Assembly: GCA_024653775.1 (NCBI GenBank)
Contig: JANLHZ010000325.1
Span: 1 to 41,508, forward strand
Length of the DNA stretch: 41,508 nucleotides
Direction of reading: 5' to 3'
Source of the DNA: Planctomycetota bacterium
Lineage (GTDB): Bacteria > Planctomycetota > UBA8742 > JACQVU01 > JANLHZ01
A program made the position numbers and the translations under genes. Positions 8,611-32,641 of the stretch are shown here, piece after piece (within the stretch, counting starts at the first letter, position 1; each line of letters begins with the position of its first letter). Under the pieces are notes generated by a model. That model was not told where the DNA came from. It saw nothing but the letters and a program-made list of their open reading frames with translations, and ran no database searches.

Positions 8611-8808
8611 CTATGAAGTGACCTGGTAATCCACGGCTCGCGGGTTCTCGACTCGCTTCGACGCATTCAGAACTTCCATCCCCACAATGTTGCCATCCTT
8701 GTCGTAGTCTAGAATGACTCCGGGCTTGTCTTCATCGCTTTCCTCTACCTGGGTGTCGCGAAACAGAATCCGCAGTACGTCCACATCCGGGTCGTAGATT
8801 ACTTTCAT
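8611..8808 (-). CDS. DUF2283 domain protein
   Basis: A 65-residue protein with the DUF2283 signature: MKVIYDPDVDVLRILF at the start, a central acidic stretch, PGVILDYDKDGNIVGMEVLNAS, and a short variable tail. DUF2283 proteins are usually found paired with a small DUF4258 gene, as here, and the pair is often suspected of toxin-antitoxin activity with DUF2283 as the antitoxin-like partner; this is family context, not proof. Its ATG overlaps the upstream DUF4258 stop (ATGA), implying translational coupling. The stop codon is TAG. Confidence 0.85.
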   Translation of the reverse strand: MKVIYDPDVDVLRILFRDTQVEESDEDKPGVILDYDKDGNIVGMEVLNASKRVENPRAVDYQVTS

Positions 8809-9065
8809 ATGGTTTCCTTCCAGTATTTTCCGATGTTACTTGTCCGATAAACCGTCACGATTCGCCTTGGCATTGCGGTTTCGTTCACCATCACGCGCAC
8901 GAGATACGACTTCCGGTTGATTTCGACCTTCGATTGATAGCATACCACATCTTCGTGGCCAGGCAATACTTGCCCGGGAGCATCCAGTACCAGTTCCACG
9001 ACGATAAGTGGAATCCCACGTCGCTTCATTTCCGTCCGCGCATGTTCCGAAAGCTCATAACTCAT
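8805..9065 (-). CDS. DUF4258 domain protein
   Basis: An 86-residue basic protein with the DUF4258 pattern: LSEHARTEMKRRGIP near the start, ending with the IVTVYRTSNIGKYW strand. DUF4258 belongs to the group of small RelE/HigB-like or BrnT-like folds, so it is the toxin-like half of the pair with DUF2283. No catalytic residue assignment can be made from sequence alone. The start codon lies inside the last 11 bp of the methylase gene in another frame. Confidence 0.82.
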   Translation of the reverse strand: MSYELSEHARTEMKRRGIPLIVVELVLDAPGQVLPGHEDVVCYQSKVEINRKSYLVRVMVNETAMPRRIVTVYRTSNIGKYWKETI

Positions 9066-12000
9066 TGGATTTGCCTTCGACGATTTCGATCTCCACCGGC
9101 GTCAGATCGTAGAGTCCGTACACGATCTCGTCTATCTCTCGCTCCAGCGCGCTCACGTCCGCGTCCGCATCGCTCTTCTTGGCTTTCAGGATTTGGTCCA
9201 CCAATCGCTCGATCCGCTTTTGCTGCTCCAGAGTCGAGGAGGGAGTGGGAATTTGCTTGATATAATCAGAGAACGCACGCAGATAGCCACCTCTAACTTT
9301 GTTCGATATATTGGAATAAAACCATTCCACCGCGCGTGAATTCAATAACGCTGTCAGCCACTTTTCAGTGCTTGGAATGAAGTAGCACGTGTTGGCTACG
9401 TAAATAGTTTCCTCATTCCAAGTAAAACTTTGGTGCTCGTAAATGTCGGGATAAACAATCTTCGTCTGTTCGAATTCTTGCCAGTAGGCGCATGACCGAA
9501 GTTCCCAAAAGTATCTTCCCTGGTCGTCTCTGCGTTGGAGCTGTTCCAGTTTATTTCTGCATCCACGAGCATCGGGTTTCTCTAGTTTGATGTCTCGCAG
9601 CGATTGAAAGCGCTCGTGAATCGCGGGATACACTTTGCCGAAAATCTTTTCCGCTTCCTTTTCGGATTTTCCAGACCAGGGATGATCTTTGTTTTCAGAC
9701 GACTCGATTTTGATTAGATACTGCCCTGAGAATTCCACCCTCCACCTTTTGACGTCGCGTCCACGGAGGAAGGGTTTCAGGACTTCCGCGGAAGATGGAT
9801 GTTCGCTGATGAGTTTGTCCCTCGTCGCGCGGTCAACGACGAAGGCTTCGTTCAGCCCGGTCTTGATGCCGTAGTAAAATCTTCCGCCGACGTATTCGCC
9901 GAGTGGAGTTCCCGCGTTACGGAGCTTTTCGAGGAGCCTTAGAACCGCGGGTGATTCCAGTCGCCAGCCGTCGGGTTTTAATTCTTCCTGACGGATTCGC
10001 AGTCCGCGCTCGGTGACGATTTGCGCGATTTGCGCGATGCGCTCGATGGGAAGTTCCCGCTCCCAAGTGTACGCGAGCGCGCTATCGTCGGATCCGGGAG
10101 CCTTGCGCATTCCAATAAAGATGGATGCGTAAGCGATTGCGTCGAATACTGGAGCATCGCCGAAGTCGATAAGGCGCTTTATCGAGAGTTCCCGCGCGAG
10201 GAAGTCGCGCAGTTTTTCGCCGTAACCCGCGCGATAGAATTTGTTCGATGTGATGAGCGCGATGACGCCGTTTTTGCGGAGCAGCTTCACGCCTCGTTCG
10301 TAAAAGTATACAAGTAAATCCGCGGTTCCGGTGTAGCACTCGTAGCCTGATTCCTTGAGCGCGGATTTTAGTTCCTTGATGGATTCCTGGCGGACATAAG
10401 GTGGATTGCCGATGACGACATCGAATCCGCCGTGTACACCAAACATCCAGGCGGGATCGAAGTAATCCGCGGAAGCGTTCTGGTCGTAAGGATCCCAGGA
10501 CGCAAGCTTTCTCGCGGAATCCGTGCCCCAACCCGTCGTTTCGAGTTCCGCCGCGATTCCTTCCCGCAGTTTCTGATCGAGGTCGCGATATTTCCTTTTT
10601 GTCGCAGGGGTCTTCGCGCTGAAGAGGTTATGCCGTACCTGCTTGAGTTCCTTTTCGAGGAGTTTTACTTCCTTCTTGTCGAAAATATCCCCAAGGGAGT
10701 CAGGCTTTTCAATTGGGATCAGCGTATTCGCAGTCGCGAATTTGGTTTCTAGATTTGGAAGTGGACGAACGCCGAAGTTTTCTTTTTTAGCGTCTACCTT
10801 CTGGTCCACGATGAGGGAAATGAAAAACCTGAGTTTGCTTATCTGAGTGGCGATGGACTGGATATCGACGCCGTAAATGCAGTTTTCGATGAGGTAGAGT
10901 TTTCGACCGTATCCGAGTTCATTTTGCGCGAACGCCTCGAGAATGTCTTTTCTTTTGGCGGACAGATCTTCGTCCAGTTGATCCCTAAGTTCTGAATCGT
11001 CGATTTCCATGGCCGAATCTTTACCAGCACTGATTGCGTCTTCTACTTTTTTGATCTGACGATCACGCCAGAGCGCATTGTCCTTATCAAGCTTGCCCAG
11101 AATAAATTCGAGCTTGTGCAGAGCGCCCATCGGAAACGCGCCCGATCCGCAAGCCGGGTCAAGAATCTTGCAGTTATCTATCGCGCTGATAATCGCCTTT
11201 ACCTCGCTGTCTGAAAACTTGTGATCTTCATCGGTGTAAGCGAAAAGTTGCCTGAGTCGGTCGTCGATTTCATTTTTTTGCTCGTGGCTCGCCTCTTTCG
11301 GTATAAGCGCATCTTTCAGGTATTCGATAAGAGATTCACCTACCATGTAATCCACGATTTCACGCGGAGTGTAGAAAGAGCCGCTCTGCTTGCGAGCGGT
11401 CGTCTGGGTTTCAGGATTATACGACGCAAGCAGATTTTCGAAGACTTTTCCGAGGAGCTCCGGATCGAGCGCGATTTCCTGTTCGATCGGGGTGTTCTCG
11501 ACAATCGTAAATTTATAGTTGCCGAGAATGTGGATGATTCCGCGCACCTTTTCCTTTTTGCGTTTCTTGTCGCCGTAGATGTCGCTTAGGTCCACGGTTT
11601 GTTCGCTACCGAAGAATAGATAGTTTGGAACGTCTAATTTGTTATCCTCCCGATCTGAAAATCCATCCTCGTAGCGGATAACTTCGCCTCCCTGACGCCC
11701 CTTGAGTTTTGGGTCTGGAGCGTCAAGACACTCAAAAAGACCGCCGTTCATGAAAGGGACTTTCGTTTCAACGAGCTCAAGGAACGACTTTGGATCGTTG
11801 AAGAGGTTTTCATATCGCACCAGGCTAGTAACATTGCGGTGTTGACGCCCTTGATTTCGAAATGCTCGCTTGCCAACTGTTTGGTTGAGAGTCGCAAAGA
11901 AGAGGTTCTGCAGAATGGCTTTGTAGTAAACGGTGTTGCTGGAATTCTCATCGAAGTTCTTGAGAATCGCGTTCAGTTTCCCCGGTTTAAAAAGATCCTC

Positions 12001-12888
12001 TGGAACAAGGTCCTTTTCTTTTACGAACCACACAAAAAGAAGCCGCGTCAGAAGTCTGATAAGGTTTTTAGCGTCGTGCTCCCTGTGCGGGTTACTTTGT
12101 TTAAGAAGGTTATCTTTTCCAAGCTTCATATCGTCGAATGGGAAATGGACGTGCTGCATTGCCCAGAAATACCAGTTAGACAATTCACGGTAGAATTTTT
12201 TATTCAGAAGTTCGATGTTGAATATCTTCTCCCAGGCTTCGTGAAGATCGTCGAAGCTGGAAACGCCTTGGATGCCAGACGGATCGCAAAGCGAAAAACT
12301 TGCCAGGATATCGAGATGGCCGCGATGAGGGGAGGCTATATTTATGTCGCGAATTATGGTTACTTTACCAAGAACGTCCTTGCCGAAGTCACGTTTATTG
12401 CGACGACGGTTTATAACCGCGATAGAGAGCTTCCCGCCGTATTCGAAAATCACCATCACCGGCATAACAGAGAGGCGATTGATTTGTCGTGTGATACCTG
12501 CAATTCTCCCACGCGGGTAATCGTTTTTTTTCAGGCGAACCGCGAAGAAAAGGTATGACTCCATCAGACTTTTGCGAACTTCATTATCTACAAAAAGCGT
12601 GCCCTGCCTTCCAAGTTCATCGTCTGAGAGTTGAAACAGTAGATGTATTTCTTTCCAGTCGTCAAAAAGAGCCTTAGACTTATTGAATCCCTGCGCGAAT
12701 TCGACGCGAAAATTTTCAAAAAAAGCTTCCTTTGAGCCGCCGAGGTCCAATGTCCGCTTACTTTTATAACCTAGCGCGCCAAGCAGATCGATAGCTGCTG
12801 TTTTGAGGTCTAACGAACTGAAATCCTGCACGGATGATTTTATATTTTGTCGGGTATCTTTTGAAGTTCGACCAGTATTTCGAGCCAT
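9055..12888 (-). CDS. Eco57I-type DNA adenine methyltransferase, large restriction-modification subunit
   Basis: The 1277-residue product carries the amino-methylase motifs: SAM-binding DPACGSGAF (577-585), a following IYGVDIQSIATQISKLRF block, and catalytic NPPY (828-831), predicting N6-adenine methylation. Residues about 1000-1230 should form target recognition, ending in a helical EREIDEIVYGLYDL tail shared with related enzymes. The N-terminal ~330 residues are conserved-looking and unassigned; a degenerate nuclease fold is possible. A GGTGAT site precedes the ATG by 5 nt. The helicase gene ends 21 bp upstream, and together they resemble two-gene helicase-methylase defence systems. Base composition is AT-richer than the ribosomal genes, suggesting transfer. 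It could be a stand-alone type IIG enzyme, but the partner helicase argues against that. Confidence 0.88.
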   Translation of the reverse strand: MARNTGRTSKDTRQNIKSSVQDFSSLDLKTAAIDLLGALGYKSKRTLDLGGSKEAFFENFRVEFAQGFNKSKALFDDWKEIHLLFQLSDDELGRQGTLFVDNEVRKSLMESYLFFAVRLKKNDYPRGRIAGITRQINRLSVMPVMVIFEYGGKLSIAVINRRRNKRDFGKDVLGKVTIIRDINIASPHRGHLDILASFSLCDPSGIQGVSSFDDLHEAWEKIFNIELLNKKFYRELSNWYFWAMQHVHFPFDDMKLGKDNLLKQSNPHREHDAKNLIRLLTRLLFVWFVKEKDLVPEDLFKPGKLNAILKNFDENSSNTVYYKAILQNLFFATLNQTVGKRAFRNQGRQHRNVTSLVRYENLFNDPKSFLELVETKVPFMNGGLFECLDAPDPKLKGRQGGEVIRYEDGFSDREDNKLDVPNYLFFGSEQTVDLSDIYGDKKRKKEKVRGIIHILGNYKFTIVENTPIEQEIALDPELLGKVFENLLASYNPETQTTARKQSGSFYTPREIVDYMVGESLIEYLKDALIPKEASHEQKNEIDDRLRQLFAYTDEDHKFSDSEVKAIISAIDNCKILDPACGSGAFPMGALHKLEFILGKLDKDNALWRDRQIKKVEDAISAGKDSAMEIDDSELRDQLDEDLSAKRKDILEAFAQNELGYGRKLYLIENCIYGVDIQSIATQISKLRFFISLIVDQKVDAKKENFGVRPLPNLETKFATANTLIPIEKPDSLGDIFDKKEVKLLEKELKQVRHNLFSAKTPATKRKYRDLDQKLREGIAAELETTGWGTDSARKLASWDPYDQNASADYFDPAWMFGVHGGFDVVIGNPPYVRQESIKELKSALKESGYECYTGTADLLVYFYERGVKLLRKNGVIALITSNKFYRAGYGEKLRDFLARELSIKRLIDFGDAPVFDAIAYASIFIGMRKAPGSDDSALAYTWERELPIERIAQIAQIVTERGLRIRQEELKPDGWRLESPAVLRLLEKLRNAGTPLGEYVGGRFYYGIKTGLNEAFVVDRATRDKLISEHPSSAEVLKPFLRGRDVKRWRVEFSGQYLIKIESSENKDHPWSGKSEKEAEKIFGKVYPAIHERFQSLRDIKLEKPDARGCRNKLEQLQRRDDQGRYFWELRSCAYWQEFEQTKIVYPDIYEHQSFTWNEETIYVANTCYFIPSTEKWLTALLNSRAVEWFYSNISNKVRGGYLRAFSDYIKQIPTPSSTLEQQKRIERLVDQILKAKKSDADADVSALEREIDEIVYGLYDLTPVEIEIVEGKSNEL

Positions 12889-12909
12889 TGGACATCACCA
12901 TTTGTTGTG

Positions 12910-15900
12910 TTATTTTCGAGGTTTTTCAGATTTGATTACAAGCCATGTGACGAGTTCGAAGTCACTTGTATCATTTGGTTGATTTTCCGCTTCAGGGATT
13001 ACGAATGAACGCTTGTCCTGTAGTCCGCCAACGATACGATTTTTGAACTTTGACGAAATGGCAACTACGCAGCGTTGAAGCAGATTATCGTAGTGACTCA
13101 TGTTAGCGCCGTTATTGGTTTCCTGGTCGAAAGCGTCACAAAGTTTCTCGTACACCGAGGATTTGCCCGAGCATAGCTGTCTGAAAATAGTGAGTATCTG
13201 CTTTGGGTAGACAAAATTCAGTCGTACGTTACCGTCGTCGCGAACGTAAACAAGATAATAAGGTTGCAGAGGATTGATATGATCATTCTGCGGCGCTTTC
13301 GTGCTGTCGGCTTTTTGCCTGAGGCAGTAAATAACGCCGGGTGTGATGGTAGTGAATAGATCCTTGTAAGTCGGCACAACGGTGTAAAGACCAAGAGGTG
13401 AGTCTTCCAGCGCTACGCGATTGGATTCCAGGAACTTGAGCAGGTCGACGCGGAAATCGTCGAGCGAGAACTCCGTCAGCGAGATAGTTTCGTCCAGGTC
13501 TTCAATGTCGAGAACCTCATCGCGTAGTTTTTTAAGCTGCCTGTCCCGATAATGCAAATCGTCGGTTATAAGGTCTTCCAAATCCTCTTGGCGAAGCAGG
13601 TTATCATCGAGCGTCGCCGCGACATCGACAAGCGCCATTCTAGCTTCAACGCGATGCTTCAGATTGATATAATTATCGAGATTAGCGGTAGGCCAGAAGT
13701 TGACGAGCTGAACCGAGTCATTGAGGCTTCCGATTCGATCAATGCGGCCAAATCTCTGGATAATCCGGACGGGGTTCCAGTGGATATCGTAATTAATGAG
13801 AAAATCGCAGTCTTGGAGGTTTTGACCCTCCGAGATACAGTCCGTAGCAATGAGAAGGTCTATCTCGCCATTTTGGGGCATGGATGGGATCTGTGAACGC
13901 ATCTTCGAGCCGGGCGAAAAATTGGTAAGAATGTGATTGTATTCTTTAGAATGTTTATAGCCAGCGGGCTTAAAATTCGTATCGTTTTTTCCGGTTCCCG
14001 TAACAACGGCGGAGCAAACCGATAGCTCATCCATAGCCCACTTATGAAGATGGTCATACAAGTATTCTGCGGTATCCGCGAAAGCGGTGAAGAGAAGAAT
14101 TTTGCGATTGGGAACACTGTTGCGGTTGGTTTTCGGAAGTTTGATTTTCTTGGCTATGAGTTTTTTTAACTCTAACAGTTTCTCGTCTCGGTCTGGTGTG
14201 ACGTCTTTCGCCTGAATATATAGTCCGTTGATTTGCCTCTCGTCATGTTTGAGGGCTTTTAGCCACTTGTCAACATCGAGGTGATCTAACTTGTAGGTGA
14301 GCTTTTTACCCACTTCCCATGCTTCGCGGATTTCGTCATCGTCCTCGGTGGTCGAAGTCGGATCTATCTCTGAAAACTCGAAATCATCGTTTTTGCCTCG
14401 GGACTTTTTAAAGTCTTTCAAGTGCGTCTCAAGTTTCTCGATTTTCTCTATAGTACGTCCCATCGTAAGTTTGAATGAATTCACTGAACTTTCTAATCGC
14501 TTCAGGAAGTTCACTTTCATCATACCGATCAGGAAATCCTCGCGTTGAGACTGCGTGAAGTTGCCAACCCGACGCTCATATTCATTACGTATACTTTTCG
14601 GAAGATCCTCTCTTAAAAATCTCGATGGATTGAATAATGAGAGTTTGTAGTCGTCAATCTCTTTACTTAGCTTATCGTAGGACATGAATTTGTCCTCACG
14701 ATCAATATCCGGATGAAGAGTGATCGGCTTTAAACGCTTCGGGAACTGACCTATGCGTTCCATTTCGTGTGCGTAGTATTTTAGAATGTGTTTCCGCGCG
14801 CGCGCAATAGTGAGTTGATCGAGGAGCTTAAAAAAGTCAGACCCCAGCCTCGATAGCAGGTCGGCTGTTCGACGCTTAGCGGTTTCTTGTTTCGACCACG
14901 TGGTAAAGTGCCCCTGCGCCTTGCGCAGACATTCTTTCACATCAGGAATGCCTAATGATTCTGCAAAGTACGCTTCCTCTCCCGCGGAAATGAAGTAAAT
15001 TTGATTTCGGAGGTCTTTTAGGTCGTTATTAACGGGAGTCGCGGATAGGAGAAGTACTTTCGTTCGAATCCCGCTTTTGACGATGTCATCGAGAAGACGC
15101 CGATACCGGCTTTTTCGTATGACATTCCCGTCCTCGTCTTTCTTTCCAGGAGTGTTATTTCGGAAATTATGGGACTCGTCGATGACTACGAGGTCGTAGT
15201 TTCCCCAGTTCAAGGTGTCAAGTTTTATGCCCCCGCTTTCACCCTTTTCGCGGCTGAGATCGGTGTGCGAAAGCACATCGAATCGAAATCGGTCTTTCAG
15301 AAATGGATTGAGAAGGTCATTGCTGCGGAAGACGGTCCAGTTGCCACGAAGTTTCTTCGGGCAAAGCACCAGCACGCGTTCGTTTTTCAACTCGAAGAAT
15401 TTAATAACCGCTAGCGCCGAATACGTCTTTCCGAGACCCACCGAATCGGCAAGTATACAGCCGTTGTAGGCCAGAATCTTGTTTATTATCCCTTTTACGC
15501 TATCCTTTTGGAACTCGTACAAGGCATTCCAAATATGAGATTCGAACAGAGTTGTTCGAGCCAGTCGATCTCCGCTGCGATCCACATCATCCAGGTATCG
15601 CTCAAACAGATGGAATAGCGTTTTGAAATAGATAAATTCCGGCGAGTGATTTTGATATACCTGTGCGAGGTATTTCAGCACCTCCTCTTTGACATCAATA
15701 GAAAAGTGGTCATTCGACCAAAGATTATCGAACCACTGCTTAAGGTCCGTTCGATCTCGATCGGAATCAACTATCAGGTTAAGCTCGATATTTCCACCTC
15801 CGGAAACCAATCCAAGTCCCGGTGGAGTGAAATTTGAACTGCCAAGTATTGCTTTTTCGACCCCCTGATGAATTATGTGGTACATTTTACCATGCAGGAG

Positions 15901-16263
15901 GTTGCTCTGTTTTATTGAGCGGATGTCCACCTTTGATTTGATCCATTCCGCGCATTCACGTGCTACCCGCTTTTGCTGAAGCACGTTCGACAACCGAAGG
16001 CCGGAGGAATCGATCATGAATGCTCTCTTCTCTGATCTGGCAGGGTCGAGCGCTCGGACGAATCGAGGCTCACCGAAAAGAAAGTTCATTTTCTCAATAT
16101 TATCGAGGGATGCCTTAAGAACCTCATAAGTGTAAACAGTGAAGTATGCGGATACCGCGGAAACGTGGGACCCCGGCTTGATTGCCTTCTGAATAAACGC
16201 ACCCACAGTGCCGCGTGTATGATTGTCGCGGATACCCGAGTTCATATTCACTTTTTCATTCAT
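12910..16263 (-). CDS. PLD-nuclease / SNF2-family helicase, probable restriction or anti-phage subunit
   Basis: The 1117-residue product starts with a phospholipase-D-like domain (about 20-190) carrying HGK (124-126) and GSSN (141-144); the usual aspartate between them is not evident. A SNF2/superfamily-2 motor follows: Walker A DSVGLGKT (273-280), DESH Walker B (362-365), a LLLSATP motif, and motif VI QRFGRIDRIG (from 836). Such PLD-helicases are found beside Eco57I-type methylases and are annotated as anti-phage proteins; the expected role is ATP-driven movement and cleavage of unmodified DNA. It is the first gene of the minus-strand cluster. A dyad-overlapped promoter lies just upstream. 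Codon use is AT-richer than the flanking ribosomal genes. Confidence 0.85.
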   Translation of the reverse strand: MNEKVNMNSGIRDNHTRGTVGAFIQKAIKPGSHVSAVSAYFTVYTYEVLKASLDNIEKMNFLFGEPRFVRALDPARSEKRAFMIDSSGLRLSNVLQQKRVARECAEWIKSKVDIRSIKQSNLLHGKMYHIIHQGVEKAILGSSNFTPPGLGLVSGGGNIELNLIVDSDRDRTDLKQWFDNLWSNDHFSIDVKEEVLKYLAQVYQNHSPEFIYFKTLFHLFERYLDDVDRSGDRLARTTLFESHIWNALYEFQKDSVKGIINKILAYNGCILADSVGLGKTYSALAVIKFFELKNERVLVLCPKKLRGNWTVFRSNDLLNPFLKDRFRFDVLSHTDLSREKGESGGIKLDTLNWGNYDLVVIDESHNFRNNTPGKKDEDGNVIRKSRYRRLLDDIVKSGIRTKVLLLSATPVNNDLKDLRNQIYFISAGEEAYFAESLGIPDVKECLRKAQGHFTTWSKQETAKRRTADLLSRLGSDFFKLLDQLTIARARKHILKYYAHEMERIGQFPKRLKPITLHPDIDREDKFMSYDKLSKEIDDYKLSLFNPSRFLREDLPKSIRNEYERRVGNFTQSQREDFLIGMMKVNFLKRLESSVNSFKLTMGRTIEKIEKLETHLKDFKKSRGKNDDFEFSEIDPTSTTEDDDEIREAWEVGKKLTYKLDHLDVDKWLKALKHDERQINGLYIQAKDVTPDRDEKLLELKKLIAKKIKLPKTNRNSVPNRKILLFTAFADTAEYLYDHLHKWAMDELSVCSAVVTGTGKNDTNFKPAGYKHSKEYNHILTNFSPGSKMRSQIPSMPQNGEIDLLIATDCISEGQNLQDCDFLINYDIHWNPVRIIQRFGRIDRIGSLNDSVQLVNFWPTANLDNYINLKHRVEARMALVDVAATLDDNLLRQEDLEDLITDDLHYRDRQLKKLRDEVLDIEDLDETISLTEFSLDDFRVDLLKFLESNRVALEDSPLGLYTVVPTYKDLFTTITPGVIYCLRQKADSTKAPQNDHINPLQPYYLVYVRDDGNVRLNFVYPKQILTIFRQLCSGKSSVYEKLCDAFDQETNNGANMSHYDNLLQRCVVAISSKFKNRIVGGLQDKRSFVIPEAENQPNDTSDFELVTWLVIKSEKPRK

Positions 16264-19802: not shown

Positions 19803-19916
19803 TTATCCCTGCTTCTGCTTGTGCCTTTTGTTCGAGCAGATCACGCGGACGATTCCCTGTCTGCGAATGATCTTGCAGTTTTCACAAATACGTTTAACGC
19901 TTGCCTTGACCTTCAT
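19803..19916 (-). CDS. rpmJ: Ribosomal protein L36, zinc-ribbon form
   Basis: A 37-residue protein read on the minus strand: [20 protein letters not shown], then a second pair containing [13 protein letters not shown]. The residues C-x-x-C (11 and 14), C27 and H32 form the C-plus zinc site. Its ATG overlaps the infA stop (ATGA) and it ends 15 bp before rpsM. It sits in the normal place between infA and rpsM. Confidence 0.96.
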
Positions 19917-20284
19917 TTCTTTACTCCTCCCCCACTTCCGCCTTTCACGCCGCTGCCGCCGCCGCCACGCTTATCTGGCTTCTTGCTGGTGTCGGCGACC
20001 GCGCTTTCGGCGTCGGGTCCATCTTCATCGGGCTTGTCTTTCGGCATCCCGCTCCTCTGCAAACTCTGGCGATACACAATCCTGCCCTTCGTGAGATCGT
20101 ATGGCGACATCTCGACAACCACGCGGTCTCCGGGAAGAATCTTGATCCTGTTCATTCTCATTTTGCCCGAGAGATGGCAAAGGATGGTTTGCTTCGCGAA
20201 TTCGTCCAGCTCCACCCGGAACTTAGTCCGCGGAAGCAGTTCGCGCACCACGCCTTCGACTTTAATGTTATCTTCCCGTGACAT
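19913..20284 (-). CDS. infA: Translation initiation factor IF-1 with C-terminal extension
   Basis: Residues 1-about 76 are a complete OB-fold IF-1 ([52 protein letters not shown]), which occupies the ribosomal A site during initiation. Residues about 77-123 are an added polar then Gly/Ser/Lys-rich tail; normal IF-1 is about 72 residues. In many bacteria the map gene lies between adk and infA; here it is missing. Confidence 0.95.
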
Positions 20285-26956: not shown

Positions 26957-27304
26957 CTATGCTCCCCTCTCCTGCGCCTTCCGAGTGATGGCGACGAGCC
27001 GCCACCTCTTGGTTTTCGACAGCGGCTTCGTTTCCTCGATCACCACGAGATCCCCCTCCACGGCTTCGTTCTTCTCGTCATGCGCGTAGTATTTCGTCGA
27101 CCTGTTCACGATCTTCCCGTAAAGCGGGTGGATCCTGCGGTCGGTAAAGAGGACGGTGATCGTCTTGTCCGCCTTCGAACTCTTCACGACTCCTTCGACG
27201 CGCTTGCGCAGCTTCGCCGGGGCATTCGCCTTCTGCTGGTTGTCGCTCGCCTTCGATTCGCCCCGCGCGTCTTCGTGCGCGACTATGTTTTCTGCTTCGC
27301 TCAT
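26957..27304 (-). CDS. rpsQ: Ribosomal protein S17 with N-terminal extension
   Basis: The 115-residue product binds 16S rRNA 5' domain. Residues 1-about 32 are an added polar leader; the OB-fold core follows ([43 protein letters not shown], then [21 protein letters not shown]). Usual length is about 85. No alternative in-frame ATG lies nearer the core. Confidence 0.95.
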
Positions 27305-30421: not shown

Positions 30422-30721
30422 TCAGATAAGCTCGAGGTTGCTTCCTTCCTTCAGAATCACGATCGCCTTTTTCCACCTGGGCTTCTGATACAGGGAATAG
30501 CGGAACCTCTTCTGTTTCGTCCTCATCCACACCGTGCGGACCTTCTCGACCTTCACGTTCCAGATCTTCTCGACCGCGGCCCTGATCTGAATCTTGTTGG
30601 CCTTCGAATCGACGCGAAACACGTACTGATTGAGGGAGTTCTTCTTCATCGCCTTTTCGGTGAAGATCGGCTCCTTGATAATGTCGTATTCCGACAGGAT
30701 TCTGTCTCTGACGCTACTCAT
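30422..30721 (-). CDS. rplW: Ribosomal protein L23
   Basis: The 99-residue product sits at the exit tunnel and docks trigger factor and SRP. It has IIKEPIFTEKAMK, NQYVFRVDSKANKIQIRAAVEKIWNVKVEKVRTVWM and RWKKAIVILKEGSNLELI. Length is normal. Its start overlaps the end of the L4 gene by 8 bp, indicating coupling. Confidence 0.97.
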   Translation of the reverse strand: MSSVRDRILSEYDIIKEPIFTEKAMKKNSLNQYVFRVDSKANKIQIRAAVEKIWNVKVEKVRTVWMRTKQKRFRYSLYQKPRWKKAIVILKEGSNLELI

Positions 30722-31991
30722 CGGTTCCCTCCGCGCCGCTTTCGACCGCGGCTCTTCTTCTGATCTTGCTGACTTGCGCCCTCGCGCGATCCCGCGCGGC
30801 CTCGAAGGCGTCCTTCACGAAGTAGACGTATCTGCTCTTAAGAACGTCGTAAGCGTTCAGATCGCCGACTTCGCAGATAGACACGCCATCGATGTTCGAA
30901 ACGGATTTGAGAAGCGCAGAGTCCTCCGCCGAGCGAATACGCTTTTCAGAGCGGGTCGGGCCCGGATTCTCGCCGTACCTGGCTTTGTGCCTCTGACGGA
31001 CCCTTTTGCTCGCGTGGGAACTCGGCCTCGGGACCGCGGTTTCAGTGATTTCCAGCTTGTCGCTATTCTTATAGACGAGGAGTACGGTGCCGTCGCGCCC
31101 GAGGGCCTTCTTTATCTGCCTTGCAAGCTCCTGCCAGGCGAAGGTCCACACTTCCGCGGGCTTCACGTAGACGCGGTGCGTTTTTTCGTGGGTTCCAGTA
31201 TCGTCCGTCTGCGCGTAGGTGACGTCTACCATCGTCCCCTTGCCTTCGATAAGCGACTCTGCGACGTGTTTCGCGTGCCAGTTGAACGCGTTTTTCAGGT
31301 CGACGTCGCGCATCGATTTCGAAACGGCATCGCGGAAGTTCTTCTCGATGTAGTTTTCGAGCAGTGCAAGGACGTCGACGTGCTCGTAGAACACTCTCGC
31401 GAGGAGTCTCTGCATCGCGAACGCGCCGGAGTTTTCGAGGTTCTGGAACATTCCCTCCATCGCTTCGAAAATGGTCTTTTCTCCAGTAGCGACCGCGGAA
31501 TCCGTGCTCGCCTTCTCGAACGCCTCACGCAGCGGAGTCCGGCGGTCGTTGTCAACGGTCCTGACGAGATTCGCGATAACGCTCGTCTTCGGAGCGTCGA
31601 GCTTCAGCGAGTCGATAACCGCCAGCTCGCCGTCGATGACCTTCGAGAACAGCGCGCTTCTGAGCGCCGCGTGGCGAATCTTCTTGGGATACTTGTACGA
31701 GTAGTCCCGCGGCTTCGGCCCGAAGGACTTGCCGCCCCCGACGAACTGCGCCGACTTGTACGAACCCTGCCTTGCGCGACCCGTGCCCTTCTGCCTCCAC
31801 GGCTTTATGTTCGGCCCGGCAATCTCGCTCTTGCCTTTTATCTTGTGGGTGCCGACGCGCTTGTTAGCCTCGTACATCACCACCGCTGAGTGAAGCGTCT
31901 CGTAGTGCACCATTCCGCCGAAAATGTCGTCCTCGGCGGAAATTGCCTCGAGCCTGGCGCCCTCTTGATTGTAAACCGGAATCGTATGCAT
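30714..31991 (-). CDS. rplD: Ribosomal protein L4 with large internal insertion
   Basis: The 425-residue product is about twice normal L4 (~205). Residues 1-147 are ordinary, including the tunnel-loop block IKPWRQKGTGRARQGSYKS and APKTSVIANLV. The last part is also ordinary (ALLKSVSNIDGVSICEVGDLNAYDVLKSRYVYFVKDA, 359-395). Between them, residues about 148-295 form an inserted mostly helical domain that I cannot match to any family. VLLVYKN (303-309) probably corresponds to the conserved VLIIT strand, followed by a second, basic insertion (about 312-356). No stop or frameshift interrupts it, and gene spacing is normal, so it is a real fused insertion. L4 binds 23S rRNA and in E. coli represses its own operon. 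Confidence 0.93.
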   Translation of the reverse strand: MHTIPVYNQEGARLEAISAEDDIFGGMVHYETLHSAVVMYEANKRVGTHKIKGKSEIAGPNIKPWRQKGTGRARQGSYKSAQFVGGGKSFGPKPRDYSYKYPKKIRHAALRSALFSKVIDGELAVIDSLKLDAPKTSVIANLVRTVDNDRRTPLREAFEKASTDSAVATGEKTIFEAMEGMFQNLENSGAFAMQRLLARVFYEHVDVLALLENYIEKNFRDAVSKSMRDVDLKNAFNWHAKHVAESLIEGKGTMVDVTYAQTDDTGTHEKTHRVYVKPAEVWTFAWQELARQIKKALGRDGTVLLVYKNSDKLEITETAVPRPSSHASKRVRQRHKARYGENPGPTRSEKRIRSAEDSALLKSVSNIDGVSICEVGDLNAYDVLKSRYVYFVKDAFEAARDRARAQVSKIRRRAAVESGAEGTDE

Positions 31992-31999
31992 CGTTCTAC

Positions 32000-32641
32000 C
32001 TATTTCACCTTCGCTGTCTTCGCCTTCTGAACGACGACAAGACCGCCGTTCGGCCCGGGAACGCTACCCGAAACAAGGAGCATGTCGTGCTCTTCGTTCA
32101 CTTCTACTACTTTTAGGTTCTTCGCAGTGATCCGCGCGGCGCCGAAGTGACCTCCCATGCGCTTACCCTTCCAGACGCGTCCTGGCCAGGTGTGCATTCC
32201 GATCGACCCCGGACGACGGCCTTTCATACTGCCGTGACCTTTGCCGCCGATCGAGAATCCGTAGCGCTTGACGGTTCCCGCGAATCCGCGTCCCTTGCTC
32301 GTACCGATGACGTCCACGAACTTGACGTCCCCGAAAATGCCGACCGTTACCTTATCGCCTACGCCGCGAGCGTCGTTTACTTCCGTCCGGAACTCACGCA
32401 GAACCTTCTTCGGCGCAACGCCCGCCTTCTGGAAATGCCCCGTCAGCGGCTTCGTTACGTTCTTCGGCTTCGCCTTTTCGTACCCGAGCTGCACGGCGCT
32501 ATAGCCATCCGGACCGTCCGCCTTCTTGACCTGCACGACTTCGCAGGGGCCGACGGAAAGGACCGTCACCGGAATACAGGTTCCGTCTTCCCTGAAGATC
32601 TGGGTCATTCCCACTTTTCTGCCTAATAAAGCCGTCGACAT
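32000..32641 (-). CDS. rplC: Ribosomal protein L3
   Basis: The 213-residue product reaches towards the peptidyl-transferase centre. It starts MSTALLGRKVGMTQIF; has VDVIGTSKGRGFAGTVKRYGF, GKGHGSMKGRRPGSIGMHTWPGRVWKGKRMGGHFG, the invariant core loop; and a typical C-terminus. Length is normal. It ends 8 bp before rplD. Confidence 0.98.
   Translation of the reverse strand: MSTALLGRKVGMTQIFREDGTCIPVTVLSVGPCEVVQVKKADGPDGYSAVQLGYEKAKPKNVTKPLTGHFQKAGVAPKKVLREFRTEVNDARGVGDKVTVGIFGDVKFVDVIGTSKGRGFAGTVKRYGFSIGGKGHGSMKGRRPGSIGMHTWPGRVWKGKRMGGHFGAARITAKNLKVVEVNEEHDMLLVSGSVPGPNGGLVVVQKAKTAKVK

Follow-up and report, generated by a model that had tools for sequence, protein, structure and literature searches.

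Ribosomal protein L4 with two internal insertions in a Planctomycetota genome

Ribosomal protein uL4 is highly conserved and helps line the exit tunnel. Bacterial forms, as described by the family profiles PF00573 and TIGR03953, are ordinarily about 200–215 amino acids long, carry the tunnel-loop motif within a complete core, and are encoded by a single gene between rplC and rplW. The globular domain of uL4 lies on the surface of the 50S subunit while a loop reaches the tunnel, and the bacterial protein contacts the helicase SrmB and RNase E (PMC10931766). uL4 is also among the ribosomal proteins which have repeatedly gained extensions (PMC7804294).

Several forms of L4 with extra sequence are available for comparison. 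Yeast uL4, the sequence of which was confirmed against PDB chains, has a short (~28 aa), strongly basic insertion ahead of GPLVVYAEDNG, in the segment that joins helix a3 to strand b3. Among bacterial proteins, NCBIfam lists a 50S L4 "sunset domain variant" (NF051449), and L4 of Cutibacterium acnes (8crx chain e) has 301 aa; the latter matches the L4 profile from residue 4 to residue 229 with no large gap, which puts its additional residues at the C-terminus and not inside the core. No publication describing a large internal domain in bacterial L4 was found in the literature searched.

The rplD gene and its two insertions

The window, that is, the whole analysed stretch of 41,508 nucleotides from a Planctomycetota bacterium, contains an rplD gene whose product has 425 aa, twice the ordinary length. 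The features of the gene and its two neighbours, in the direction of transcription, are as follows.

32000..32641, minus strand: rplC (L3), 8 bases upstream of rplD, in a normal operon context
30714..31991, minus strand: rplD (ribosomal protein L4), whole coding sequence with stop codon, 425 aa, from the open reading frame and family profiles
31548..31991, minus strand: N-terminal part of the L4 core, residues 1–148, ending in helix a3 (PF00573 profile positions 3–132; alignments)
31692..31859, minus strand: tunnel loop, residues ~45–100 (57-sequence alignment)
31089..31547, minus strand: insert 1, residues ~149–301, at site 1; predicted helices, beta-hairpin and helix; net charge −3; no homologue found
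31056..31088, minus strand: core strand b3 (TVLLVY) and following residues, 302–312, between the inserts (alignment; AlphaFold strand 303–307, pLDDT ~91)
30924..31055, minus strand: insert 2, residues ~313–356, at site 2; basic arm, net charge +6 (alignment; charge count)
30714..30923, minus strand: C-terminal part of the L4 core, residues 357–425 and stop codon (PF00573 profile positions 142–187 at 30795–30932)
30422..30721, minus strand: rplW (L23), overlapping rplD by 8 bases, in a normal operon context

The product matches PF00573 (Ribosomal_L4; 4.5e-51, 173.6 bits against a cut-off of 25.8) and TIGR03953 (178.3 bits against a cut-off of 130.1). The PF00573 match is split, as its best stretch covers residues 19–148 only (profile 3–132) and a second piece, profile 142–187, is matched separately at 30795–30932. 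Nine residues of the tunnel loop and C-terminal core (K63, Q67, K68, G71, A73, R74, G86, N366 and N379) are invariant in an alignment of 57 sequences, the order L3–L4–L23 of the S10 operon is undisturbed, and a profile search of the source genome (5.4 Mb, 331 contigs, 96% complete) found one copy of L4. Judged by its sequence and gene context, the rplD product is thus a bacterial uL4 with a canonical core and, as the sole L4 of this genome, presumably essential. It was also scored as a candidate NF051449 variant, but with 155.3 bits it stayed below the cut-off (385), its best-matching stretch lay in the N-terminal core of L4, and this assignment was rejected. The first-pass annotation of this DNA had described canonical L4 ends, an intact reading frame, and ordinary spacing to L3 with a retained overlap with L23, all of which agrees with the profile matches on both sides of the inserts, the 8-base gap to rplC and the 8-base overlap with rplW.

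In alignments to relatives from the same class and phylum, ~153 residues are added where helix a3 (APKTSVIANLVRTV) would lead into strand b3 (TVLLVY), which is site 1, and ~44 where b3 would lead into the following helix (SALLKSVSNI), which is site 2, so that the two inserts flank a conserved hydrophobic strand. One MAFFT alignment instead gives a single insertion of ~200 residues (~149–345), with KRIRSA as b3. The reading with two insertions is preferred because TVLLVY makes the better core strand, is predicted with a pLDDT of ~91, and has an equivalent (AALVAF) at the ordinary spacing from helix a3 in the L4 of a genome from the same order (G199). The insert boundaries had earlier been placed at ~148–295 and ~312–356, right to within a few residues. 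The earlier description of the second insertion as a basic stretch is matched by its net charge of +6, and both inserts lie, as had been proposed, away from the tunnel loop in the sequence.

With TVLLVY taken as strand b3, on which the equivalence depends, site 1 corresponds to the place expanded in yeast uL4 and is a known expansion point. The two site-1 insertions are nevertheless unlike, since insert 1 has ~153 residues, a net charge of −3 and a predicted structure, and its sequence is dissimilar to the short, strongly basic yeast segment.

Both inserts have the coding character of the host genome. Codon usage departs from random synonymous codons with z values of 8.4 for insert 1 and 4.1 for insert 2 and resembles that of the core and the neighbouring genes, as does the GC content by codon position. 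With both inserts in frame, native in codon usage and within an intact operon, they are, barring an assembly error, genuine coding sequence. Foreign or misassembled DNA within rplD might be suspected, as the genome is known from a single fragmented assembly (331 contigs) and insert 1 was seen in no second genome; an artefact of assembly or binning would, however, have to account for two distinct insertions which both keep the frame, fall in structural loops and have native codon usage, with no stop or frameshift and intact neighbours, and the L4 of the same-order genome is expanded too, which makes this explanation very unlikely. No repeats of note hinting at a mobile element were seen around the insertion, and no signal was obtained to suggest that the inserts are duplicated parts of L4 or of other proteins encoded in the window.

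The in-frame, internal position in a highly conserved host protein also recalls inteins, and a cleaved element of this kind, removed by self-splicing or by a protease, would leave an ordinary L4. Neither an intein nor any other family was matched by the insert in searches of Pfam, NCBIfam and other family collections, insert 1 contains no cysteine, and there are two insertions rather than one, both in loops, whereas inteins usually occupy conserved motifs. Post-translational removal is accordingly considered even less probable than an assembly artefact.

Occurrence of the insertions among relatives

The comparison covered 392 genomes of the phylum, including the source genome (G000), of which one (G199) belongs to the same order, 18 further genomes to the same class, and no other to the same family. 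L4 was detectable in 375 of the 392, and only in the source genome and G199 does a large internal insertion split the L4 match; this count is based on the number of profile matches per genome and may miss expansions too small to split the profile. Other genomes with two L4 matches were set aside, as those in G102 and G257 are second copies or contig-edge pieces, the second match in G110 is weak and contains stops, and the two matches in G357 are overlapping pieces with a stop or frameshift. The L4 of G175 (L087, G175:C249) carries an insertion of ~27 residues just before helix a3, a place different from both site 1 and site 2.

L4 of G199 has 279 aa and thus shares a large insertion at site 2 (64 extra residues after b3), but has none at site 1. 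Its site-2 sequence is not significantly similar to insert 2 (shuffle p about 0.4), and homology of the two is not supported at the level of sequence. Both sampled genomes of the order therefore have an expanded site 2, although two genomes are too few to speak of an order-wide trait. The possibility that the insertion is common to a whole phylum, raised in the first-pass annotation, does not agree with these results, as none of the other phylum genomes sampled has it, apart from the different site-2 insertion of G199.

Insert 1 was seen in one genome only. It has no significant match in Pfam, NCBIfam, PHROGs, PDB sequences, phages, plasmids or viral contigs, and none was obtained from the 391 other genomes of the phylum or from the rest of the source genome; one weak own-genome match, on contig C211 (E 0.32), runs antisense to a long open reading frame of von Willebrand-type appearance and was discarded. 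A single peptide-pattern scan of genome contigs, which sees close relatives only, found no relative of the whole protein. The best relatives of the L2 protein in genome contigs have 65–66% identity and come mostly from planctomycete MAGs (e.g. JAHBXZ010000011, JABTUE010000003 and JADLBZ010000070).

The main rival to a specific role is neutral expansion, in which the inserts are tolerated on the surface and form part of a trend of this lineage to longer ribosomal proteins. Long tails on L5, L15, L17, S17 and IF-1 in the same gene cluster are consistent with such a trend, and the different site-2 insertion of G199 suggests that this loop tolerates varied sequence. The tails are, however, terminal and of low complexity, and insert 1 is neither; its three tryptophans, mixed hydrophobic residues and predicted regular elements would be needless in a neutral loop of 153 residues in an abundant and presumably essential protein. 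Neutral expansion is thus regarded as a real possibility, though not the favoured one.

Predicted structure and possible role of the inserts

The AlphaFold2 model of the whole protein, based on the 57-sequence alignment, has a mean pLDDT of 75.7 and a pTM of 0.68. The globular core is mostly above 90 and the tunnel loop is low, as expected for this loop off the ribosome. Insert 1 is modelled as four or five helices followed by a hairpin (253–263/266–276) and a further helix (278–297), with pLDDT values of about 50–86, mostly 50–65 and reaching 86 near the hairpin. When insert 1 was modelled by itself with no alignment, a roughly comparable succession of elements resulted, with a mean pLDDT of 60. 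Insert 1 had been anticipated to form a helical domain, and the model is indeed largely helical but adds a beta-hairpin, at low to moderate confidence. A Foldseek search with the full model matched L4 chains over ~400 query columns, and the structure prediction and fold search which had been suggested for this region thus returned a preserved L4 core and no significant PDB match for insert 1.

The top Foldseek PDB matches for insert 1 alone are nucleotide-binding domains of Hsp70, and its helix–helix–hairpin–helix order of predicted elements fits Hsp70 subdomain IIB. The second half of insert 1 might accordingly derive from or imitate this subdomain and give the ribosome a docking point for a chaperone cofactor, for example a GrpE-like exchange factor. 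The likeness in sequence is marginal, with a Smith–Waterman score of insert 1 against IIB of same-class DnaK proteins that beats ~99% of shuffles and natural segments, but neither the Foldseek E-value (0.26, on a model with a pLDDT of 60) nor the profile methods reach significance. A broader Hsp70-IIB profile gives 1.3 bits (p 0.02–0.04) with its best stretch in another register, hhalign of insert 1 against Hsp70-IIB is not significant, and no Hsp70 is among the 50 best matches listed from the viral library; moreover, the IIB test was picked after the fold match had been seen. An Hsp70-IIB origin of insert 1 is therefore an unproven lead, and the docking of a chaperone cofactor by such a derivative is considered improbable.

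The reading favoured here, held with about even confidence, is that this genuine and sole L4 carries a lineage-specific protein-interaction module on its solvent side (insert 1) and an rRNA-binding arm (insert 2), the orientation and function of both being deduced from fold topology and composition. On this reading, core strand b3 would have gained a domain of ~153 residues at its N-terminal end and a basic arm of ~44 residues at the other. In an alternating alpha/beta fold such as this one, the tunnel loop is expected at the C-terminal ends of the strands, so that insert 2, on the same side, should face the rRNA, where it may act as a binding arm, and insert 1 would emerge on the other side, towards the solvent face of the 50S subunit. 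There it could serve protein docking, with an assembly factor or an adjacent protein of the ribosome as possible partners; protein contacts of this kind are already known for bacterial uL4 in SrmB and RNase E. The charges of the inserts (+6 and −3) agree with this orientation: rRNA contact is plausible for the basic insert 2, and for the slightly acidic insert 1 a protein- or solvent-facing module fits better, and is the more likely, than the fixing of rRNA.

An internal predicted domain of ~150 residues in bacterial uL4 would mean that the bacterial ribosome accepts a large lineage-specific module at a loop which eukaryotes have also expanded, and, if insert 1 binds something, it would form a permanent recruitment site on the 50S subunit. 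A bolder version, in which a new protein domain (possibly Hsp70-IIB-like) has been built into the ribosome via L4 and every 50S subunit of this lineage always exposes on its surface a site where a chaperone or an assembly factor can dock, is speculative and only slightly less doubtful than cofactor docking by an Hsp70-like second half. Marker-gene pipelines may trim or discard L4 genes of this kind.

Other observations in the window and genome

A 16S rRNA gene was not found in the assembly of the source genome. Several other genes of the ribosomal cluster, all on the minus strand, encode proteins with long, charged, low-complexity tails, which are C-terminal in L17 (16472–17140), IF-1 (19913–20284) and L15 (22467–23168) and N-terminal in L5 (25328–26095) and S17 (26957–27304). 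Long tails are also present in related genomes, on S17 in G199 and on L22 in G200. With its two motifs of the CxxC type, CPKC and CKKC, L24 (26130–26516, minus strand) may be a zinc-binding form; same-class relatives vary in this respect.

Downstream of rplQ, where the ribosomal cluster ends, the minus strand encodes a helicase of HKD and Snf2 type (12910–16263; PADLOC C3a139, 2.4e-129), and adjoining it a type IIG restriction enzyme-methyltransferase (9055–12888; 2.2e-109). Together they are likely to be a phage-defence pair (9055–16263). Beside these genes lie two small overlapping open reading frames of 65 and 86 aa (8611–9065, minus strand) which have no PADLOC match and which we take to resemble a pair of the DUF2283/DUF4258 type, possibly a toxin–antitoxin system.
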